The position numbers and the translations under genes were made by a program. A stretch of DNA of 53,546 bases from a virus. The DNA lies in the IMG/VR virus record IMGVR_UViG_3300032164_000019, positions 1-53,546 of that record, one strand, 5' to 3'. Below the pieces are notes generated by a model that was not told the origin of the DNA, did no database searches, and saw only the letters and a program-made list of their open reading frames with translations. Shown piece by piece: positions 15,874-32,961 of the stretch (its first letter is position 1; the number at the start of each line of letters is the position of its first letter).

Positions 15874-18418
<2,545 letters not shown>

Positions 18419-27700: not shown

Positions 27701-27828
27701 TTGTGGTGCAAACTAGCCAACAAAACACTAGTGTACAAAATAATACTATGATTACTCCGGCTAATCCTAGAGGAACCGAATCAACTCATGAGCAAATTAT
27801 GCGTAAGGCCTTCGGCGGTGGTTTTTAA
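24724..27828 (+). CDS. Tape-measure-like tail protein with C-terminal lysozyme-like domain (1034 aa)
   Basis: A strong site (GAGGGG) precedes the ATG. Residues about 60-330 are Lys/Glu/Pro-rich and hold 9-residue repeats (EEPKAAPKP type, about 170-225). A hydrophobic segment with MMALKLTAFAVALAAAYDLY lies near residue 545, as in many tape-measure proteins. From about 735 the DLLTMARISETGPKTG and GEGYSYGAYQFHSLYG segments resemble the muramidase-like domain at the VgrG3 C-terminus; the Glu of ISETG is the candidate catalytic residue. The position after gp26/gp51 fits a gp29 counterpart. Since gp5 here lacks lysozyme, this domain may supply wall-cutting activity. Confidence 0.75.
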   Translation: MKFTKYGPNGEILEKGPDGRYLPSTPKPPTKPEEKMSLEDQMLAMSYTPTPTGSDGRPTKEGIIAHAKKVDDLQRRIVERDKISAAEKKAAEKKAEIDKARVKSELPKPAEPLKPSVVKPAESVKEKTDSFAAKLKKEGKERTERIKADFSEKKGEGLFSLSRLDFVPKKDKEPKAAPKSEEPEAAPKSEEPKVAPKPEEPKAAPKPEKPKKTPKPKEPKEAPKRVKKVKEPISEPAIIEKPKKTRKPKEPKLAGFDAKSSIGNDPIPETKEAPKEEKAAKENIANRIFGRLKSKAKGFFEGGKKVVENTEESPELQDTQTDVPKPDLDVEKQPLGMFGQTTIYHANKPEEEEPPKKKRRKKKGEVDEEPTVKSQSTDPKSGWDSEENTSIFGGSSKRFYRKVKLSRKEKKDINSGTNEIEDSGKTSKSDPAPKSLAGILNKHTKLLTVIAAGVKKMSGIKSKDIDYEGKLTDKLKGKTERVVGEKRKKDKNGIFDDDFLKKLTSNNPFVNLPIEMAKWGLSFISSLGAMMALKLTAFAVALAAAYDLYKGFKEGYDDIDTQKQTLNPSFDTETQKTMGGFVGMAKTTGRWLDKVNDKIFGKKRQGELTFEDIGASSSTNVLNRFGEAMHDVANNPIVPMVENNPENQAIIKAISEQQKLARETGIPTKPEDVIKPPTPPPSNEAIRYQRQEALEKWKKIRQPIIAPIPPSDSKTTSNVEREKGQRGDPVGKDLLTMARISETGPKTGSAADIKAYGKNNKDGEGYSYGAYQFHSLYGLKEFLPFLKQKYPKFAKILYDAGGIPAAQKNSPKFVAAWEALANNKEFHKAQDEGILELYGKPVFSLVKSQTGLDFSKKSLKIQSGIASMAINKGNQGAANIIKSTFSGANQQVVDSMSDKELANRIASSRALDLEGSKNRGDQGLWNRIENEKISMGGDPGQRIFKNDEGITVPSPKPTVELAKIESPQTGKQLYTASVNVEEQRNAPQPQQPVVVQTSQQNTSVQNNTMITPANPRGTESTHEQIMRKAFGGGF

Positions 27829-29943
27829 GCTTTAGCCAAATTCTCGAAATAAGATAGATCATCACCTTCCCCTGTAGCCCAAGGTAGTTCATCACTATCC
27901 TTTTCAGACTCAGGTTCTGACTCTTTTTCTAATTTCTTTGGGGCCTTAACTTTTTTCGGCTTAGATTCAGCCACTTCCAATTCATCTTCAACAGTTTCAC
28001 TCTTAGCAGAACCATTAACATTACCAACAACCTTTAAGAATCTGGCCTTTAATTCATCATAAGTCTTAAAGTTCTTTTCATCGGTGAACTCACTTAAAGG
28101 ATATTCTTTCTCCCAAATCTTTTTGATTTCCGCATCCTTACCTTCACACAAAGCGGAAGGATTATCAAACATAGATTTATCATAATTGACATATCCTAAT
28201 ACTTTACCAGCACGAAGCTTAAAGTTTGCGCCATCCCAGAAAGAGAATGGATTAATAGGTTGATCTGTACTATCTTCAGCAGGATTCAAAAGATCATTAA
28301 TCTTCTCAAAGATTTTTTGTCCAAACTTAAATAGAAAAACTTTACCATTATTTGCAGGTTCTTTAGGATCACTAACTACCAAAATATTACTAACATAGAT
28401 GAGTTTTCTTTTACGGCCTCTAACAATATCTTGGTTTGCTTTTACTTCAGTATTCCAAAGAACTGTATTTGCTTCACAACTCTTATGTTGCGGTTAAATC
28501 GTTTCCATTTAACCTCTTATATTTTCATATAAGGACAGACTATATCACCACCCCTTTAAAGGGTGCTCTGCATTTCGAGAGTACTACTCTCTACTGGTAT
28601 ACCCATAGTCGTTGAACCTTCTCCATAGTTTTTAACTTTAGGAGCTTGGCTGCTGATTATCCAATTTAAAGACTTTTTAAACCTTTCAAGTTCTTCCTTT
28701 CGAAACTTAACACCTTGTTTTGTTTTTCTGATTCTATTAAAAACAGCAAATAAAAATATATATCCTTCTTTTTCTACTGCCATCTTTTTCTCAATACAGT
28801 TTTGATAATGTTTTTCCAAAGTATATTGGCTTTTTACTTCAATAATCAAATGTAAATGAGGCAAATAAATATCAGGATAATAAGTAGAATTACCGTAAAT
28901 AAAACTAGGAACATTAGAAATCCCAACTTTAATATCATTGTTATTAAAGTTGAAATCGTTAATAAGAATATCCAATACAAACCATTCATATCCTTGTACC
29001 TTTATTTCTTTTCCAAAGAAATTATATGATTTATACCAACTACTTTTTTCCTTAGTTTTCATAATCTTTTCCGAAATCGCTTTTCTTTCAAATTCATCCT
29101 TTTTTGACCATTGTAATTTGGTTTTTTCCGAATGAAAATTATTCCCATAACGATTAAGTATTGTTTTTTCTCTTTTTTCTAATAAAGAGACCCAATAAGT
29201 TTGTGTTTTTTGGTTTAAGGTTTTTCGTATGTTTAATTTAAAAGATTCTAATTTTTGAGGATCATTAACAAATCTATCCCTAACAGATTTTCTATGTTCT
29301 TCCGATTTACAAGCATGAATATCCGAACAATACTTTCCATATCCATCAGAAATACCTTTGAAAGAAACAACTTTATTACATCCATCAAAACGGCAAACAT
29401 CCTCATTTTCTTCTTTTAAGAACATATCATAATATTCTTTTGATTTTATACCCAATTTTCTCAACCTATTACACAAACCCCTTAACGTAGTAAATTCACT
29501 ATTATCAACAAGGCATTTAAATATTTTGTTATCCATAAAACTATTTATACCAATACATTTCAGGTTAACTCTATATTATGACTTGTGTGGTGCCTTAACT
29601 TAAGGACTTTCCAGCAATTAACAGAGTTTTCATTAAAAATTACTTTTTAATGCCGCTATTAGCTAACGGGGCAAGCTCTACCGCTGAGAGAAGTTAAACA
29701 ATTCTCAAATAACCATCCAGCGGTACCTTTAAATTGGTGTGTGAAATAACGAATAAATGGAAAATCTTCTCCTTCAGGAGCCATTAAAAAACGAATAACG
29801 GCACTACCATTATCGGCTTTATCTCGTTTTAGGGACCAGAAACGGTCATCAGCGAAGTTTGCTTTGGAATTTAAGCCCTCAATACGTTCTTGGAGCTTTT
29901 TACGGACATCATCTTTATTTTTCTTTAATTGTGCGAAATCCAT
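27825..29943 (-). CDS. 32: Single-stranded DNA-binding protein gp32, split by a group I intron (exons 29943-29666 and 28479-27825)
   Basis: Exon 1 encodes MDFAQLKKNKDDVRKKLQER, then FWSLKRDKADNGSAVIRFLM and the zinc region with H, C (FENC) and ACPV. Exon 2 resumes with CEANTVLWNTEVKAN and continues through ILVVSDPKEPANNGKVFLFK to an acidic tail. Joined, the frame is 310 aa (T4 gp32: 301) and restores the H-x12-C...CPVC zinc site. gp32 coats ssDNA in replication, repair and recombination. Without splicing, exon 1 stops two codons into the intron. A consensus sigma70 promoter lies upstream at 30001-30029, and the stop overlaps that of the convergent tape-measure-like gene. Confidence 0.92.
28480..29665 (-). 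mobile_element. Group I intron (1186 nt) in gene 32, with endonuclease ORF
   Basis: P1: exon CCGU pairs with intron AGCGG so that the splice-site U faces G, the group I hallmark. A P-like element AATTGCTGGAAAGTCC lies at 29618-29603. R (GGTTCAACGACTA, 28618-28606) and S (GATATAGTC within 28546-28533) pair through GACUA/UAGUC as P7. A P9-type hairpin GGTTAAAT/ATTTAACC precedes the 3' end. The last base is G (28480), and exon joining restores a continuous gp32 frame. The endonuclease ORF occupies 29536-28556. Confidence 0.9.
28556..29536 (-). CDS. Intron-encoded homing endonuclease, PD-(D/E)XK type (326 aa)
   Basis: An N-terminal Cys cluster (C48, C53, C70, C76) looks zinc-binding. Residues 110-165 contain KTILNRYGNNFHSEKTKLQW, a pattern seen in phage intron endonucleases. 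The catalytic core reads PD at 221-222 and E233-V-K235 in YYPDIYLPHLHLIIEVKSQY, giving PD-x10-ExK. The family cuts intronless alleles and drives intron homing. The last 20 or so codons overlap the intron R element and P7 region, so protein and ribozyme sequence constrain each other. A TATAAATA box is five bases before the ATG, which would favour late expression. Confidence 0.85.
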   Translation of the reverse strand: MDNKIFKCLVDNSEFTTLRGLCNRLRKLGIKSKEYYDMFLKEENEDVCRFDGCNKVVSFKGISDGYGKYCSDIHACKSEEHRKSVRDRFVNDPQKLESFKLNIRKTLNQKTQTYWVSLLEKREKTILNRYGNNFHSEKTKLQWSKKDEFERKAISEKIMKTKEKSSWYKSYNFFGKEIKVQGYEWFVLDILINDFNFNNNDIKVGISNVPSFIYGNSTYYPDIYLPHLHLIIEVKSQYTLEKHYQNCIEKKMAVEKEGYIFLFAVFNRIRKTKQGVKFRKEELERFKKSLNWIISSQAPKVKNYGEGSTTMGIPVESSTLEMQSTL

Positions 29944-30000
29944 ATGTACCTTTTATTTTTTTGTATTTTAATTATTCACTAGGTACTCATAATATAATCT

Positions 30001-30029
30001 ATTATACTACATTATAAGCAGGTTGTCAA
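30001..30029 (-). promoter_or_regulatory. Sigma70 promoter of gene 32, consensus -35 and -10
   Basis: On the minus strand TTGACA (30029-30024) and TATAAT (30006-30001) are 17 bp apart. The -35 element lies inside the end of the gp59 gene. The leader runs to the gp32 ATG at 29943 with an AAGG ribosome site, matching the high and separate expression gp32 needs. Confidence 0.85.
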
Positions 30030-30641
30030 CTTCTTTTTTAATTCCTGCTTAATATTATTTATATCGCATTTTATAAAGGGTCGGTATTTTTGTATCGAAT
30101 TATACCTTTCTACCCAAATAATATTACCTTTAAAATGTTCGTTATAATGTTTCAAAAATCCAAAAATCTCATCCAATATAATCAACGTTTCTAAAGAAAT
30201 AACCTTTTGAAAACAATATGTTATAATTAACGGAAACATTTGAAAATCTTTTCCTGAATACTCAAAAAGGCTTTTGAAGGATTTTGCATTGAATCTAATC
30301 GATGATAGTAGAATATCAATATCGCGCATAAAATAGTAAGAAATAGCGTCTGCCCGCTTTTTCCAAGCAAGGTAAAGTGCTTCAGAATCAGTATTTAAGA
30401 GCAAATCCCCAACCCAAGAAGGTTGATTCTGTGAAATGAAATTAGCTACGAAGAAATCTATTAGCTCAGTCCTAGTAAATTTCTTCGCTAGTTTCTCAAA
30501 GAAATACCGGTCTTTACGCTTTTCGAACGAAACTCTGGTAACATTCGTTTTACCGGAGTATTTGAAAAAGTCGTAAGAGGAGTTATCTGAGAAGTGGGCT
30601 TTTAACGCAATATAAACTTGAAAGGCTTCAAATGAGGACAT
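30012..30641 (-). CDS. 59: gp59-like helicase loader (209 aa)
   Basis: The N-terminus MSSFEAFQVYIALKAHFSDN followed by YDFFKYSGKTNVTRVSFEKR and KDRYFFEKLAKKF is typical of gp59, the protein that loads gp41 helicase onto gp32-coated forks (T4: 217 aa). The protein is mostly helical and basic. It lies directly between gp33 and gp32 as in T4. Its last codons contain the -35 box of the gene 32 promoter. Confidence 0.9.
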   Translation of the reverse strand: MSSFEAFQVYIALKAHFSDNSSYDFFKYSGKTNVTRVSFEKRKDRYFFEKLAKKFTRTELIDFFVANFISQNQPSWVGDLLLNTDSEALYLAWKKRADAISYYFMRDIDILLSSIRFNAKSFKSLFEYSGKDFQMFPLIITYCFQKVISLETLIILDEIFGFLKHYNEHFKGNIIWVERYNSIQKYRPFIKCDINNIKQELKKKLTTCL

Positions 30642-30671
30642 TAGGCATCATCTCTCCGAAAAACGATGATA

Positions 30672-30751
30672 ATAAAATTCGTTTAGTCATATAGGTAACT
30701 TTGAAGTGGCTTTAATTAAGTTTAATCTTTCCGCATCTAAACGAATTTTAT
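30672..30751. repeat. Perfect 15-bp inverted repeat across the gp33 3' end
   Basis: ATAAAATTCGTTTAG at 30672-30686 is the exact reverse complement of CTAAACGAATTTTAT at 30737-30751, with a 50-base loop. One arm is inside gp33, the other lies just past its stop before gp59. It could form an RNA hairpin between the two genes; no T-tract follows, so it is not a standard terminator. Confidence 0.5.
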
Positions 30752-30911
30752 ATTTAATTACGGAATTGATAAAAGGAGTAATATCAAGCACGTCTAATCC
30801 TCTACATGAGCAAAAGAAAGTAACGGCATCGATATAGTTTAATCTCCTATGTCGGACGATAGTTTCAATTTCAACCGCAAATTTATCAGGAGTCAATTTT
30901 ATGAACTCCAT
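30687..30911 (-). CDS. 33: gp33-like late transcription co-activator (74 aa)
   Basis: The sequence MEFIKLTPDKFAVEIETIVR, then HRRLNYIDAVTFFCSCRGLDVLDI and a helical, basic end, fits gp33 of T4-like marine phages (T4: 112 aa). gp33 bridges host RNA polymerase and the sliding clamp at late promoters; the TATAAATA boxes in this window are consistent with that system. Gene order 33-59-32 is that of T4. Short size makes the homology call moderate; synteny strengthens it. Confidence 0.8.
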   Translation of the reverse strand: MEFIKLTPDKFAVEIETIVRHRRLNYIDAVTFFCSCRGLDVLDITPFINSVIKYKIRLDAERLNLIKATSKLPI

Positions 30912-30991
30912 TGAATTACCTGTAAAAGTAAATAGAAAACTCCATAAGTAACGAGACTAGTAATTCCGATTACAATTAATTTGTCTTTCAT
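30899..30991 (-). CDS. 30-aa single-span membrane peptide
   Basis: ATG at 30991 has AGGAT nine bases upstream. The peptide is MKDKLIVIGITSLVTYGVFY followed by LLLQVIQWSS: a charged start and one hydrophobic span. Its end overlaps the gp33 start by 13 bases. The site, overlap and composition support a translated small membrane protein; function is unknown. Confidence 0.55.
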   Translation of the reverse strand: MKDKLIVIGITSLVTYGVFYLLLQVIQWSS

Positions 30992-30996
30992 ATTTT

Positions 30997-31158
30997 TTAT
31001 CCTAATAAATTACAACATTCTTCACAATAATATCCCCATTTTCCATCGGGATAAATTTCTTTCAATTTATCATCGATATTGAAATCGTAACCCTCTTTAA
31101 CTGCACGTATAAATCCGCATCTATCACAATAATCATGTCCATCACATAGAGTCCACAT
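30997..31158 (-). CDS. Small zinc-ribbon protein (53 aa)
   Basis: The frame begins at an ATG at 31158 and reads MWTLCDGHDYCDRCGFIRAV, then a charged linker and WGYYCEECCNLLG. The C-x5-C-x2-C and C-x2-C(C) groups form a plausible four-Cys zinc ribbon. It lies in the gap between the tmRNA gene and the 30-aa peptide, close to the latter. No specific family is recognised; a nucleic-acid or protein-binding role is likely for such ribbons. Confidence 0.6.
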   Translation of the reverse strand: MWTLCDGHDYCDRCGFIRAVKEGYDFNIDDKLKEIYPDGKWGYYCEECCNLLG

Positions 31159-31259
31159 TATATGTACATCGCCTTATTAATTCCTCTGAGATTAAGAAAA
31201 GAATCCATAATATTAAATGCTGGGATTTGATTAGAAGGTTCCCAGCCGACCTCCCTCAT

Positions 31260-31301
31260 TTAGGCGCTTGCGGCCATAACAAGTGGCTTAGTATTAATAG
31301 C
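31260..31301 (-). other. tmRNA tag reading frame
   Basis: The resume codon is taken as GCU at 31301 because AUA occupies -6 to -4, as in E. coli (AUAGUC before GCA). Thirteen codons read AINTKPLVMAASA and end in TAA. With the tRNA-derived Ala the tag would be A-AINTKPLVMAASA. The end is A-S-A rather than the usual L/V-A-A. Another frame through the region ends in QAPK and is less tag-like. Confidence 0.65.
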
Positions 31302-31385
31302 CTTTATTGTTTACGTTTTTCTCGTGGACGTCCCACTAGTCAGTCTTTCTCCGCCCCATTCGATCTTGTCGAATGCCTTACGCCC

Positions 31386-31558
31386 CCACCAGGGCCCTCA
31401 ATTATTTTATGTATTAAAAGAAGCTGGCATTACTCTCAAGATAGTTGAAATGGCTGGTAATTAACCGGTATAACCTCCATTCAACATTCCACTCTCTTAG
31501 CCACTCGCTCTAAGAACATGAAAAGACTAGTACAATTCCTAATTGAGGACCCTGGTGG
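31386..31558. repeat. Inverted repeat closing the tmRNA intervening segment
   Basis: The 18-base arm at 31386-31403 and the arm at 31541-31558 are complementary with a single G-U in RNA. Together they extend the acceptor stem through the CCA into the intervening segment, the structure expected in a precursor of a two-piece tmRNA before the loop is cut out. Confidence 0.8.
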
Positions 31559-31640
31559 AAGCGGCGGGATTCGAACCCGCGTCCAAAATCGCTTCAAACT
31601 TCGATTCAGAGTTAAACATCACTCAACGACTAACAATACT

Positions 31641-31669
31641 ATTATATATCATTCCAAACTATTTGTCAA
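31641..31669 (-). promoter_or_regulatory. Sigma70 promoter of the tmRNA
   Basis: On the minus strand TTGACA (31669-31664) and TATAAT (31646-31641) are 17 bp apart. A start near 31634 would begin exactly ahead of the acceptor piece. The -35 box overlaps the end of the 67-aa zinc protein gene. Confidence 0.87.
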
Positions 31670-31869
31670 GTACTATTTTTATTAGATTTCCAACTTATAA
31701 CTTCATCCGAATATAAAGCATATTCTAATAAATGTTGTTCTTCCGGTTCATCCGGATCACAATATGATTGGCACATGCAACAATATAAATCTCCATTACG
31801 GACTTTATGTAGACACTCATTCTTACATTTGGTGCATCTATATTTAGGGGGAATAGTTGTTCTTAACAT
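31666..31869 (-). CDS. Small zinc-ribbon protein (67 aa)
   Basis: The protein is MLRTTIPPKYRCTKCKNECL followed by HKVRNGDLYCCMCQSYCDPD and an acidic C-terminal half. Cys pairs at 12/15 and about 30-33 make a four-Cys zinc ribbon. It lies between the tRNA-Pro and tmRNA genes; its final codon region contains the tmRNA -35 box. No family is recognised. Small zinc-ribbon genes are repeated through this part of the genome. Confidence 0.6.
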   Translation of the reverse strand: MLRTTIPPKYRCTKCKNECLHKVRNGDLYCCMCQSYCDPDEPEEQHLLEYALYSDEVISWKSNKNST

Positions 31870-31890
31870 ATTCTTCGATTTTTCCTATTA

Positions 31891-31998
31891 TTAAATGTTT
31901 TGGACAACAATATTTCCGTTTTTAAGTTTATATGCGGAAGGTAATCCACAGCACGTTAGACTTTGAACTACCTTCCAAATGTCGGGGTAGCAGGTCAC
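31891..31998 (-). CDS. Possible 35-aa ORF starting inside the tRNA-Pro gene
   Basis: A GTG at 31998 lies in the tRNA T-loop, with AGGAGG ten bases upstream inside the tRNA itself. It reads MTCYPDIWKVVQSLTCCGLP then SAYKLKNGNIVVQNI and stops at 31891. The part outside the tRNA has coding-like composition. It may be a real short gene, or the remnant of a longer gene whose 5' end was replaced when the tRNA arrived. Confidence 0.35.
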   Translation of the reverse strand: MTCYPDIWKVVQSLTCCGLPSAYKLKNGNIVVQNI

Positions 31999-32054
31999 GA
32001 TCCTGCGGCCTCCTGATCCCAAATCAGGCGCTCTTCCAACTGAGCTACACCCCG
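31982..32054 (-). tRNA. tRNA-Pro (anticodon TGG)
   Basis: The cloverleaf has acceptor CGGGGTG/TACCCCG, D-stem GCTC/GAGC, anticodon stem CCTGA/TCAGG with loop TTTGGGA (TGG, reads CCA), and T-stem GCAGG/CCTGC. The T-loop is ATCGTGA instead of the usual TTCGANN, so T54 is lost. CCA is not encoded. A consensus sigma70 promoter lies upstream. Confidence 0.85.
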
Positions 32055-32081
32055 AAACTTATAAACTCTTTACTAAATTCT

Positions 32082-32110
32082 ATTATAGCATAAACCTATT
32101 TAGTTGTCAA
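32082..32110 (-). promoter_or_regulatory. Sigma70 promoter of tRNA-Pro
   Basis: On the minus strand TTGACA (32110-32105) and TATAAT (32087-32082) are 17 bp apart, between tRNA-Ala and tRNA-Pro. The transcript would start about 20 bases before tRNA-Pro. Confidence 0.85.
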
Positions 32111-32139
32111 GTATCATTTTCAAACCTCATGGAATTATT

Positions 32140-32214
32140 TGGTGGACCGACGGAGATTTAAACTCCGATTTTCCGGGTGCAAGCCGGTGTTCCTATCAGT
32201 TAGAAGATCAGCCC
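32140..32214 (-). tRNA. tRNA-Ala (anticodon TGC), CCA encoded
   Basis: The acceptor stem GGGCTGA/TCGGTCC contains G3-U70, the alanine identity pair, and is followed by A and an encoded CCA. The anticodon arm is ACCGG-CTTGCAC-CCGGA (TGC), with an A-A mismatch at its base. The T-arm is CGGAG-TTTAAAT-CTCCG, so the usual C56 is U. The D-loop is also atypical. The 5' end is one base after the stop of the upstream ORF. Confidence 0.75.
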
Positions 32215-32215
32215 A

Positions 32216-32569
32216 TTAAGTCTTTTGAAGATAATCTTTCAACTCACCGATTCCATCAGGATTTAATTTACCAACTTTTTTAGCCACTCCATCTTTCATA
32301 TGATGCCATTCTTTACCATCATAATCAATCAGGAATTGATTTTTTTTACTATCCTTATGGTCAAAGGTTACATGTTTATCTTCACCAGTTCGTTTATTAC
32401 CAAAACCTTGTGTTTTCAGTAAGGAATCTATTTCGGATTCATTACATTCTAATATTATTTGTTGTAAACGTTTCATAAAGGTATTTATACTGCTGAAGTG
32501 GTAATCCATCGCCTCGGCGAGTTGCTTCTCCAGAGTTTCGATGCGCTCCACGAAACTCGGTGTGCTCAT
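32216..32569 (-). CDS. Chimeric small protein: GC-rich N-terminus, AT-rich body (117 aa)
   Basis: The ATG at 32569 has a strong GGAGGG site inside a 75-bp direct repeat. Residues 1-27 (MSTPSFVERIETLEKQLAEA and following) are encoded by GC-rich DNA and form a coiled-coil stretch. From about residue 28 the DNA turns AT-rich and the protein continues with MKRLQQIILECNESEIDSLL and a charged C-terminal half. A second start, ATG at 32476, with a TATAAATA box just before it, may be the ancestral start. No family is recognised. tRNA-Ala follows directly. Confidence 0.5.
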   Translation of the reverse strand: MSTPSFVERIETLEKQLAEAMDYHFSSINTFMKRLQQIILECNESEIDSLLKTQGFGNKRTGEDKHVTFDHKDSKKNQFLIDYDGKEWHHMKDGVAKKVGKLNPDGIGELKDYLQKT

Positions 32570-32629
32570 TTTCCCTCCGCTTCCTCTCTCAGTGTTGCCG
32601 TTATGAGTTCACAGACCACCACCGATCCG
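32555..32629. repeat. 75-bp direct repeat, copy A
   Basis: Identical over 75 bases to 32780-32854, 225 bp away. On the minus strand it carries the end of one small ORF, a GGAGGG ribosome site and the MSTP start of the next. Copies A and B deliver the same leader to two different ORFs. Confidence 0.9.
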
Positions 32630-32794
32630 GCAGGATGCGATCCGTAGGCTTATTCGCGCGTCGTCCGCACTGGTCGCGTGTAGCAAGGCGCGCTGTATCG
32701 GGGTCAGGCGCGCGAACAGTTCATCGAATAGTTCCCGCTCCGCGGCGAGTTGCTGCTTCAGGAGGATAATAGTTCTGCTACTCGGTGTGCTCAT
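32609..32794 (-). CDS. Small GC-rich cassette protein (61 aa)
   Basis: It starts MSTPSSRTIILLKQQLAAER, with the same MSTPS start and identical 5' leader as the 117-aa gene downstream. Residues 10-40 form a helical, Ala/Leu-rich stretch. It overlaps the upstream 56-aa ORF in ATGA and ends inside repeat copy A, in another frame from the one used in copy B. The DNA is far richer in G+C than the phage, suggesting recent acquisition. Function unknown. Confidence 0.45.
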   Translation of the reverse strand: MSTPSSRTIILLKQQLAAERELFDELFARLTPIQRALLHATSADDARISLRIASCRIGGGL

Positions 32795-32854
32795 TTTCCC
32801 TCCGCTTCCTCTCTCAGTGTTGCCGTTATGAGTTCACAGACCACCACCGATCCG
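32780..32854. repeat. 75-bp direct repeat, copy B
   Basis: Second identical copy. Beyond it the similarity continues imperfectly as short CGATCCGTGTAG units, two of them in tandem at about 32850-32876. The pair looks like a partial tandem duplication of a small gene. Confidence 0.9.
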
Positions 32855-32961
32855 TGTAGGTACGATCCGTGTAGATGTGCCAGGCGCGCCAACTCCTCAT
32901 TCGTCGGAGGAACAACGCTTTTACTCATTCTTCCCTCTGCATTACATTCTGGACAATTCAT
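32791..32961 (-). CDS. First ORF of the GC-rich cassette (56 aa)
   Basis: The ATG at 32961 gives MNCPECNAEGRMSKSVVPPT, then NEELARLAHLHGSYLHGSVV and VCELITATLREEAEGK. An internal ATG (MSKS) has its own GAGGGAAGA site, much like the sites of the other two cassette ORFs. The stop forms ATGA with the next start. A sigma70 promoter lies at 32981-33008. The N-terminal C-x2-C could be half of a zinc site. GC-rich composition sets it apart from flanking genes; function unknown. Confidence 0.5.
   Translation of the reverse strand: MNCPECNAEGRMSKSVVPPTNEELARLAHLHGSYLHGSVVVCELITATLREEAEGK

Follow-up and report, generated by a model that had tools for sequence, protein, structure and literature searches.

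The window, by which we mean the whole 53,546-nucleotide stretch of viral DNA analyzed here (IMG/VR record IMGVR_UViG_3300032164_000019), carries a complete circularly permuted tmRNA gene at 31634-31219 on the minus strand, in which an acceptor piece is followed by a 165-nt intervening segment and then by the coding piece. We consider it highly probable that the phage carries here an intact, circularly permuted ssrA gene whose product would work as a tmRNA together with host factors. The gene matches the Rfam tmRNA_permuted model (RF04321) at 57.6 bits against a cut-off of 47, over the full length of the model (positions 1-213), with an E-value of 1.2e-8 when the window is scanned with the whole of Rfam and 2.8e-12 for one genome; the same cut-off was exceeded in one of 14 control genomes. 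ARAGORN independently called a permuted tmRNA in the window with the tag AINTKPLVMAASA, and the fold of the 425-nt RNA has a z-score of -5.1, with equal stability reached in none of 100 shuffles. The preliminary description, made from the sequence alone, had read this stretch as a phage-encoded, circularly permuted two-piece tmRNA and suggested a covariance-model scan; that reading is borne out by the RF04321 match and by the T4-like context (gp33, gp59, gp32 and baseplate genes). The betaproteobacterial permuted model (RF01850, beta_tmRNA) matched the gene at 44.7 bits, below its cut-off of 84 though over its full length, and the alphaproteobacterial model (RF01849) did not report it over cut-off, although the tmRNAs of phages Melnitz, Mosig and HTVC008M are over. 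The sequence of the window tmRNA is strongly diverged and has drifted, since its RF04321 score is far below those of isolate phage tmRNAs (90.6-113.4 bits) and nearly all alphaproteobacterial ones (mostly 108-166).

The unit begins at its acceptor end with a sigma70 promoter (31641-31669, minus strand) in which both hexamers are perfect, TTGACA (31669-31664) and TATAAT (31646-31641) being separated by N17 and matching at 12 of 12 positions, just as previously described. Because the -10 box ends at 31641, the predicted +1 is G31634, which is also the acceptor piece's first base. The earlier span of 31219-31634 therefore ends where the expected +1 and the end of the post-tag pseudoknot lie, but leaves out the promoter.

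The acceptor piece (about 82 nt, 31553-31634) was delimited from the sequence and the RF04321 alignment. It opens with the distal pairing strand GTTAGTC (31634-31628) and continues through the 3′ strand of P2 (CGATTTT, 31591-31585), a T-arm (GCGGG-TTCGAAT-CCCGC, 31580-31564), the 3′ strand of the acceptor stem (CGCTTCC, 31563-31557) and A73 with an encoded CCA (31556-31553, the CCA at 31555-31553). The coding piece (about 170-178 nt, 31210-31387), placed by the RF04321 alignment, sequence and fold and with a putative 3′ end, starts with the acceptor 5′ strand GGGGGCG (31387-31381) followed by TAAGGCATTCGAC, holds GGCATTCGAC near its start, and supplies the 5′ strand of P2 (AAGATCG, 31367-31361) and the GACTGAC (31345-31339) that pairs with GTTAGTC of the acceptor piece. 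In accordance with the preliminary description, the piece with the T-arm and CCA precedes the GGGGGCG piece on one strand, the acceptor strands pair at 7 of 7 positions including G3-U70, and AAGATCG/CGATTTT form P2. The stem additionally contains G4-U69. The register of P2 is backed by covariation in relatives: across 176 distinct viral permuted tmRNAs it pairs in 83% of cells, and in at most 54% if slid. The tRNA-Ala-like features are thus all present (acceptor stem with G3-U70, T-arm, TTCGAC D-region and P2), and the anticodon arm is absent. The T-loop, TTCGAAT, is canonical, in contrast to the GGCGGTA type in the alpha examples.

Ahead of the resume codon we read from the sequence a candidate PK1 (31313-31336) made of GTGG 31336-31333/CCAC 31327-31324 and the loop pairing ACGT 31331-31328/ACGT 31316-31313, a 4-bp plus 4-bp element that is too short for separate statistics and whose first stem is in the Rfam model. 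The tag reading frame called by ARAGORN (31260-31301) spans 13 codons from the resume codon GCT (31301-31299) to the stop TAA (31262-31260). The resume codon is in register in the RF04321 alignment, and inspection of the window revealed no plausible alternative tag frame. Past the tag lies an H-type pseudoknot (31219-31254; GGAGGT/ACCTTC and GCTGGGA/TCCCAGC); in dinucleotide shuffles, an equally good one appeared 18 times in 20000.

The ends of the intervening segment (31388-31552, from sequence and fold) are complementary and continue the acceptor stem past its 7 bp for another 17 bp, through A73-CCA, such that the precursor can form an unbroken acceptor helix of 24 bp (7 + 17) with the intervening segment as its cap. 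We considered this long extended stem as a novelty and rejected the idea, as most permuted relatives whose intervening segment is long show it too.

The surroundings of the gene are those of a T4-like phage. The 53.5-kb record carries T4-like baseplate genes, RNase H, RNA ligase and PNKP, and the gene order on the minus strand is tmRNA, gp33, gp59, gp32. The downstream neighbor of the tmRNA is a gp33-like late-transcription coactivator (30687-30911; Pfam PF16805, E = 8.3e-18), followed by the gp59 helicase loader (30012-30641; PF08993 and phrog_269) and by gp32 (27825-29943), identified by domain and family matches, whose two exons (29943-29659 and 28382-27825) are split by a group I intron. 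A contig from another metagenome (L122) contains the same tmRNA with zero differences. The two sequences are 99.69% identical over 9692 bp, with 28315-32682, tmRNA included, free of differences, and are too close for the shared gene to say anything on selection.

Several other features of the record were observed. The gp32 intron (Rfam match at 28516-28749) holds a 326-aa DUF7487 ORF (28556-29536) that looks like a homing endonuclease and had no match in the phage collection. Seventeen of the 30 differences between the window and L122 cluster at 27805-28314, in or beside the gp32 3′ exon adjoining the intron, and none fall in the intron or its ORF; this cluster could reflect exchange around the intron. 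Rfam reports a tRNA at 32143-32214 on the minus strand (43.4 bits) that ARAGORN does not, and which by eye looks like a tRNA-Ala(UGC) with G3-U70 and an encoded CCA. Six perfect promoters of the form TTGACA-N16/18-TATAAT are present on the minus strand (18516, 30029, 31669, 32110, 33008 and 39695), four of them within 3 kb around the RNA genes. A direct repeat of about 92 bp, 96% identical, occurs at 32555-32645 and 32780-32870 within small ORFs, and a collagen-like repeat (16297-16912) in a 439-aa ORF matches collagen-like genes of the Actinomycetia phage DSL-LC01.

To place the gene among its relatives, we searched IMG/VR with patterns that demanded no more than a T-arm and acceptor end, in some cases plus GGGG at the beginning of the coding piece, and obtained hundreds of loci. 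Together with loci collected afterwards, these gave 319 permuted calls by ARAGORN. In every permuted-tmRNA locus with a gp33 homologue (96/96, including HTVC008M, Mosig and Melnitz, with many near-duplicates and three copies of the window's own locus), gp33 lies downstream in the same orientation, usually with gp59 and gp32 next; in 92 loci it stays clear of the gene end given by ARAGORN, and in four it touches that end by up to 98 nt. Loci picked instead by gp59 and having at least 2.5 kb upstream showed a tmRNA upstream in 23 of 46 cases, all permuted, a fraction that holds for the clade of the gp59 query only. That query was a closer set of six sequences from tmRNA-bearing phages, as a 19-sequence alignment was too diverged for scanning, and a few of the resulting contigs overlap the pattern-fetched set. 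Near gp59 of the isolates phiM19, P-SSM2, S-B43, S-H35 and Marzo no tmRNA was found. The position of the Melnitz tmRNA directly upstream of the coactivator has been noted before (PMC9004378); the breadth of this arrangement across T4-like phages is added by the present analysis. Since the window tmRNA lies upstream of gp33-gp59-gp32, it is a member of this shared locus, which shows that it belongs to a locus common to many environmental T4-like phages and is not a recent chance pick-up.

The closest comparison among isolates is offered by the Methylophilales phage Melnitz (MZ577097, 46013-46345; PMC9004378), a T4-like phage that likewise has a tmRNA of the permuted two-piece form, genes for a gp33-like coactivator and gp59 following it downstream in the same orientation, and an isolate genome without SmpB. 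Unlike the window, Melnitz has an alpha-type T-loop, an alpha_tmRNA match of 106.7 bits, a glutamine riboswitch behind the tmRNA and the tag ANDNYVPVDYALAA, whereas the window combines a canonical T-loop with a tag ending in ASA, and an Rfam scan found no glutamine riboswitch in it. The Pelagibacter phages HTVC008M (KC465899) and Mosig (MT647606) are T4-like myophages with permuted tmRNAs on the same side of gp33, but these are alpha-type, score 90.6 and 93.6 bits and encode the tags ANFNEYALAA and GEDNFALAA, respectively. Four IMG/VR T4-like contigs (L187, L179, L201 and L207, tag ANNSDYSSAQVALAA) share with the window both the position upstream of gp33-gp59-gp32 and a coding piece starting GGCATTCGAC, but have a short intervening segment, an ordinary ALAA tag and an RF04321 score of 86.4. 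A further permuted tmRNA (L123:6397-6739, in IMGVR_UViG_3300017448_000004) also has GGCATTCGAC and a TKPL motif in its tag ATKPLTFAAAAGR. Unlike the window, however, this phage is not T4-like; it encodes a DnaB-type helicase, a DNA polymerase of its own and an integrase, and its tmRNA has no encoded CCA and a tag ending in GR, a charged residue. The tmRNA tree did not resolve the kinship of this gene with that of the window.

The preliminary description had also taken the tmRNA as a clue to host lineage, which stood in part: the canonical T-loop and the sub-threshold beta_tmRNA match do differ from the alpha-type pelagiphage tmRNAs, but the clue is weak and led to no host. In a tree of 176 mature tmRNAs the window sits on a long, unplaced branch. 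The RF01850 match was rejected as a sign of a betaproteobacterial host, as the same model matches alphaproteobacterial tmRNAs at similar scores. We also rejected a search for the host by a genome scan with the 5′ piece, which returned 26 stretches, all from Rhizobiales and without an RNA gene by ARAGORN, the six sites that were read being one recurrent non-tmRNA site. We also searched 398 Pseudomonadota genomes by pattern for permuted genes with a canonical T-loop; the results, by eye, were apparently only ordinary tmRNA or tRNA tails, so this type is without a matched bacterial control. The B12-dependent ribonucleotide reductase of the window is 52-55% identical to enzymes of roseophages and other alphaproteobacterial phages, a likeness that may be a weak hint of an alphaproteobacterial host. 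For the tail-tube cap, HTVC008M, Melnitz and Mosig, all three with permuted tmRNAs, are among the nearest named phages (27-29% identity), and a search of IMG/VR with this protein gave no match.

The most likely function of the gene would be trans-translation rescue with host SmpB and AlaRS; a search of the window record and eight further phage records, among them three complete isolates, found no SmpB gene. Reasoning from established tmRNA biology, host RNA polymerase would transcribe the gene early in infection, and host enzymes would excise the intervening segment, yielding two RNAs of about 82 and 170-178 nt, which the acceptor, P2 and distal pairings would hold together. Host AlaRS would charge the acceptor piece through G3-U70, and with host SmpB the tmRNA would rescue ribosomes stalled on broken infection mRNAs, adding A-AINTKPLVMAASA to the stalled product. 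We infer in the same way that the phage could control ribosome rescue during infection, as was previously suggested.

What sets the predicted product apart is the end of its tag, since ASA departs from the standard proteolysis signal, which usually ends in AA; an AA end is a usual rather than strictly defining feature of permuted tmRNA tags, and a few relatives also differ. Among 66 distinct tags from gp33- or gp59-linked T4-like loci, 64 end in AA (63 as called and one corrected), and the only real departures are the window's ASA and one LVA. In the corrected case (L046:3917-3951) the ARAGORN tag was misframed (DDCKSS...) and the sequence reads ANDEKFALAA, so automatic phage tag lists need checking. 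More widely, an AA end is found in 150 of the 168 distinct permuted tags from viral loci and in 33 of the 34 from Alphaproteobacteria. Four permuted tmRNA tags end in ANA (L015, L023, L026 and L033), with phage-type genes beside L015 and L026; polar penultimate residues may recur among phage tags.

One possible but doubtful variant of the preferred explanation, not exclusive of it, is that a working tmRNA whose -ASA end is a weak degron would free ribosomes while sparing tagged proteins, phage ones included, from ClpXP. The rarity of other ends among the T4-like and alphaproteobacterial tags argues for this, as do the slower degradation of an ASV tag variant than of LVA or AAV in E. coli and Salmonella (PMC11003136) and the finding that a degradation-deficient tag still supports ribosome rescue (PMC8012679). 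That the window tag is a weakened degron is a fair guess from ASV-type tag behavior rather than a result. Against it, ASA retains the terminal Ala and differs from ASV, the host protease may differ in preference, and one diverged tag may be drift. The broader proposal, that T4-like phages maintain their own tmRNA at a constant site ahead of gp33-gp59-gp32, and that in this lineage a tag without the normal degradation signal would uncouple rescue from destruction, is in our judgment unlikely.

It is improbable that the RNA is instead a decoy or decaying copy, one that binds SmpB or is charged without tagging and either lowers host trans-translation or does nothing. The low RF04321 score, long tree branch and odd tag would fit such a molecule, and a tag-less phage tmRNA is known from DS6A, a molecule of a kind that inhibits tmRNA (PMC4131195). 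However, every pairing, the promoter, resume codon, frame, stop and pseudoknot are intact, and L122 holds an identical copy, though one too close for a selection test. Host or chimeric DNA assembled into a phage contig is refuted, even though the window comes from a metagenome as a fragment lacking defined ends, by the T4 genes on both flanks, the independent presence of the tmRNA in L122 and the position shared with relatives that include finished isolates.

Two-piece tmRNAs in T4-like marine phages (Melnitz, Mosig and others) were reported in 2022, and a 2021 survey listed 402 phages with 133 unique tmRNA structures, 53 of them two-piece and 50 of these marine or aquatic (PMC9004378); 79 unique phage tmRNA sequences are in databases (PMC11915505). 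The window gene adds to these already published phage-borne permuted tmRNAs, and what is unusual in it is the strong divergence and the ASA tag end. In the open-licence literature we came across no work on degrons in phage tags or on a general linkage to gp33, and phage tmRNAs are listed in databases but hardly studied. That alpha-type and canonical T-loop genes alike occupy a fixed position in many diverged T4-like phages suggests that the gene has long been kept and does something for the phage, and the odd tag of the window offers a direct way to ask whether a phage tmRNA serves for freeing ribosomes, for recycling amino acids, or for both.
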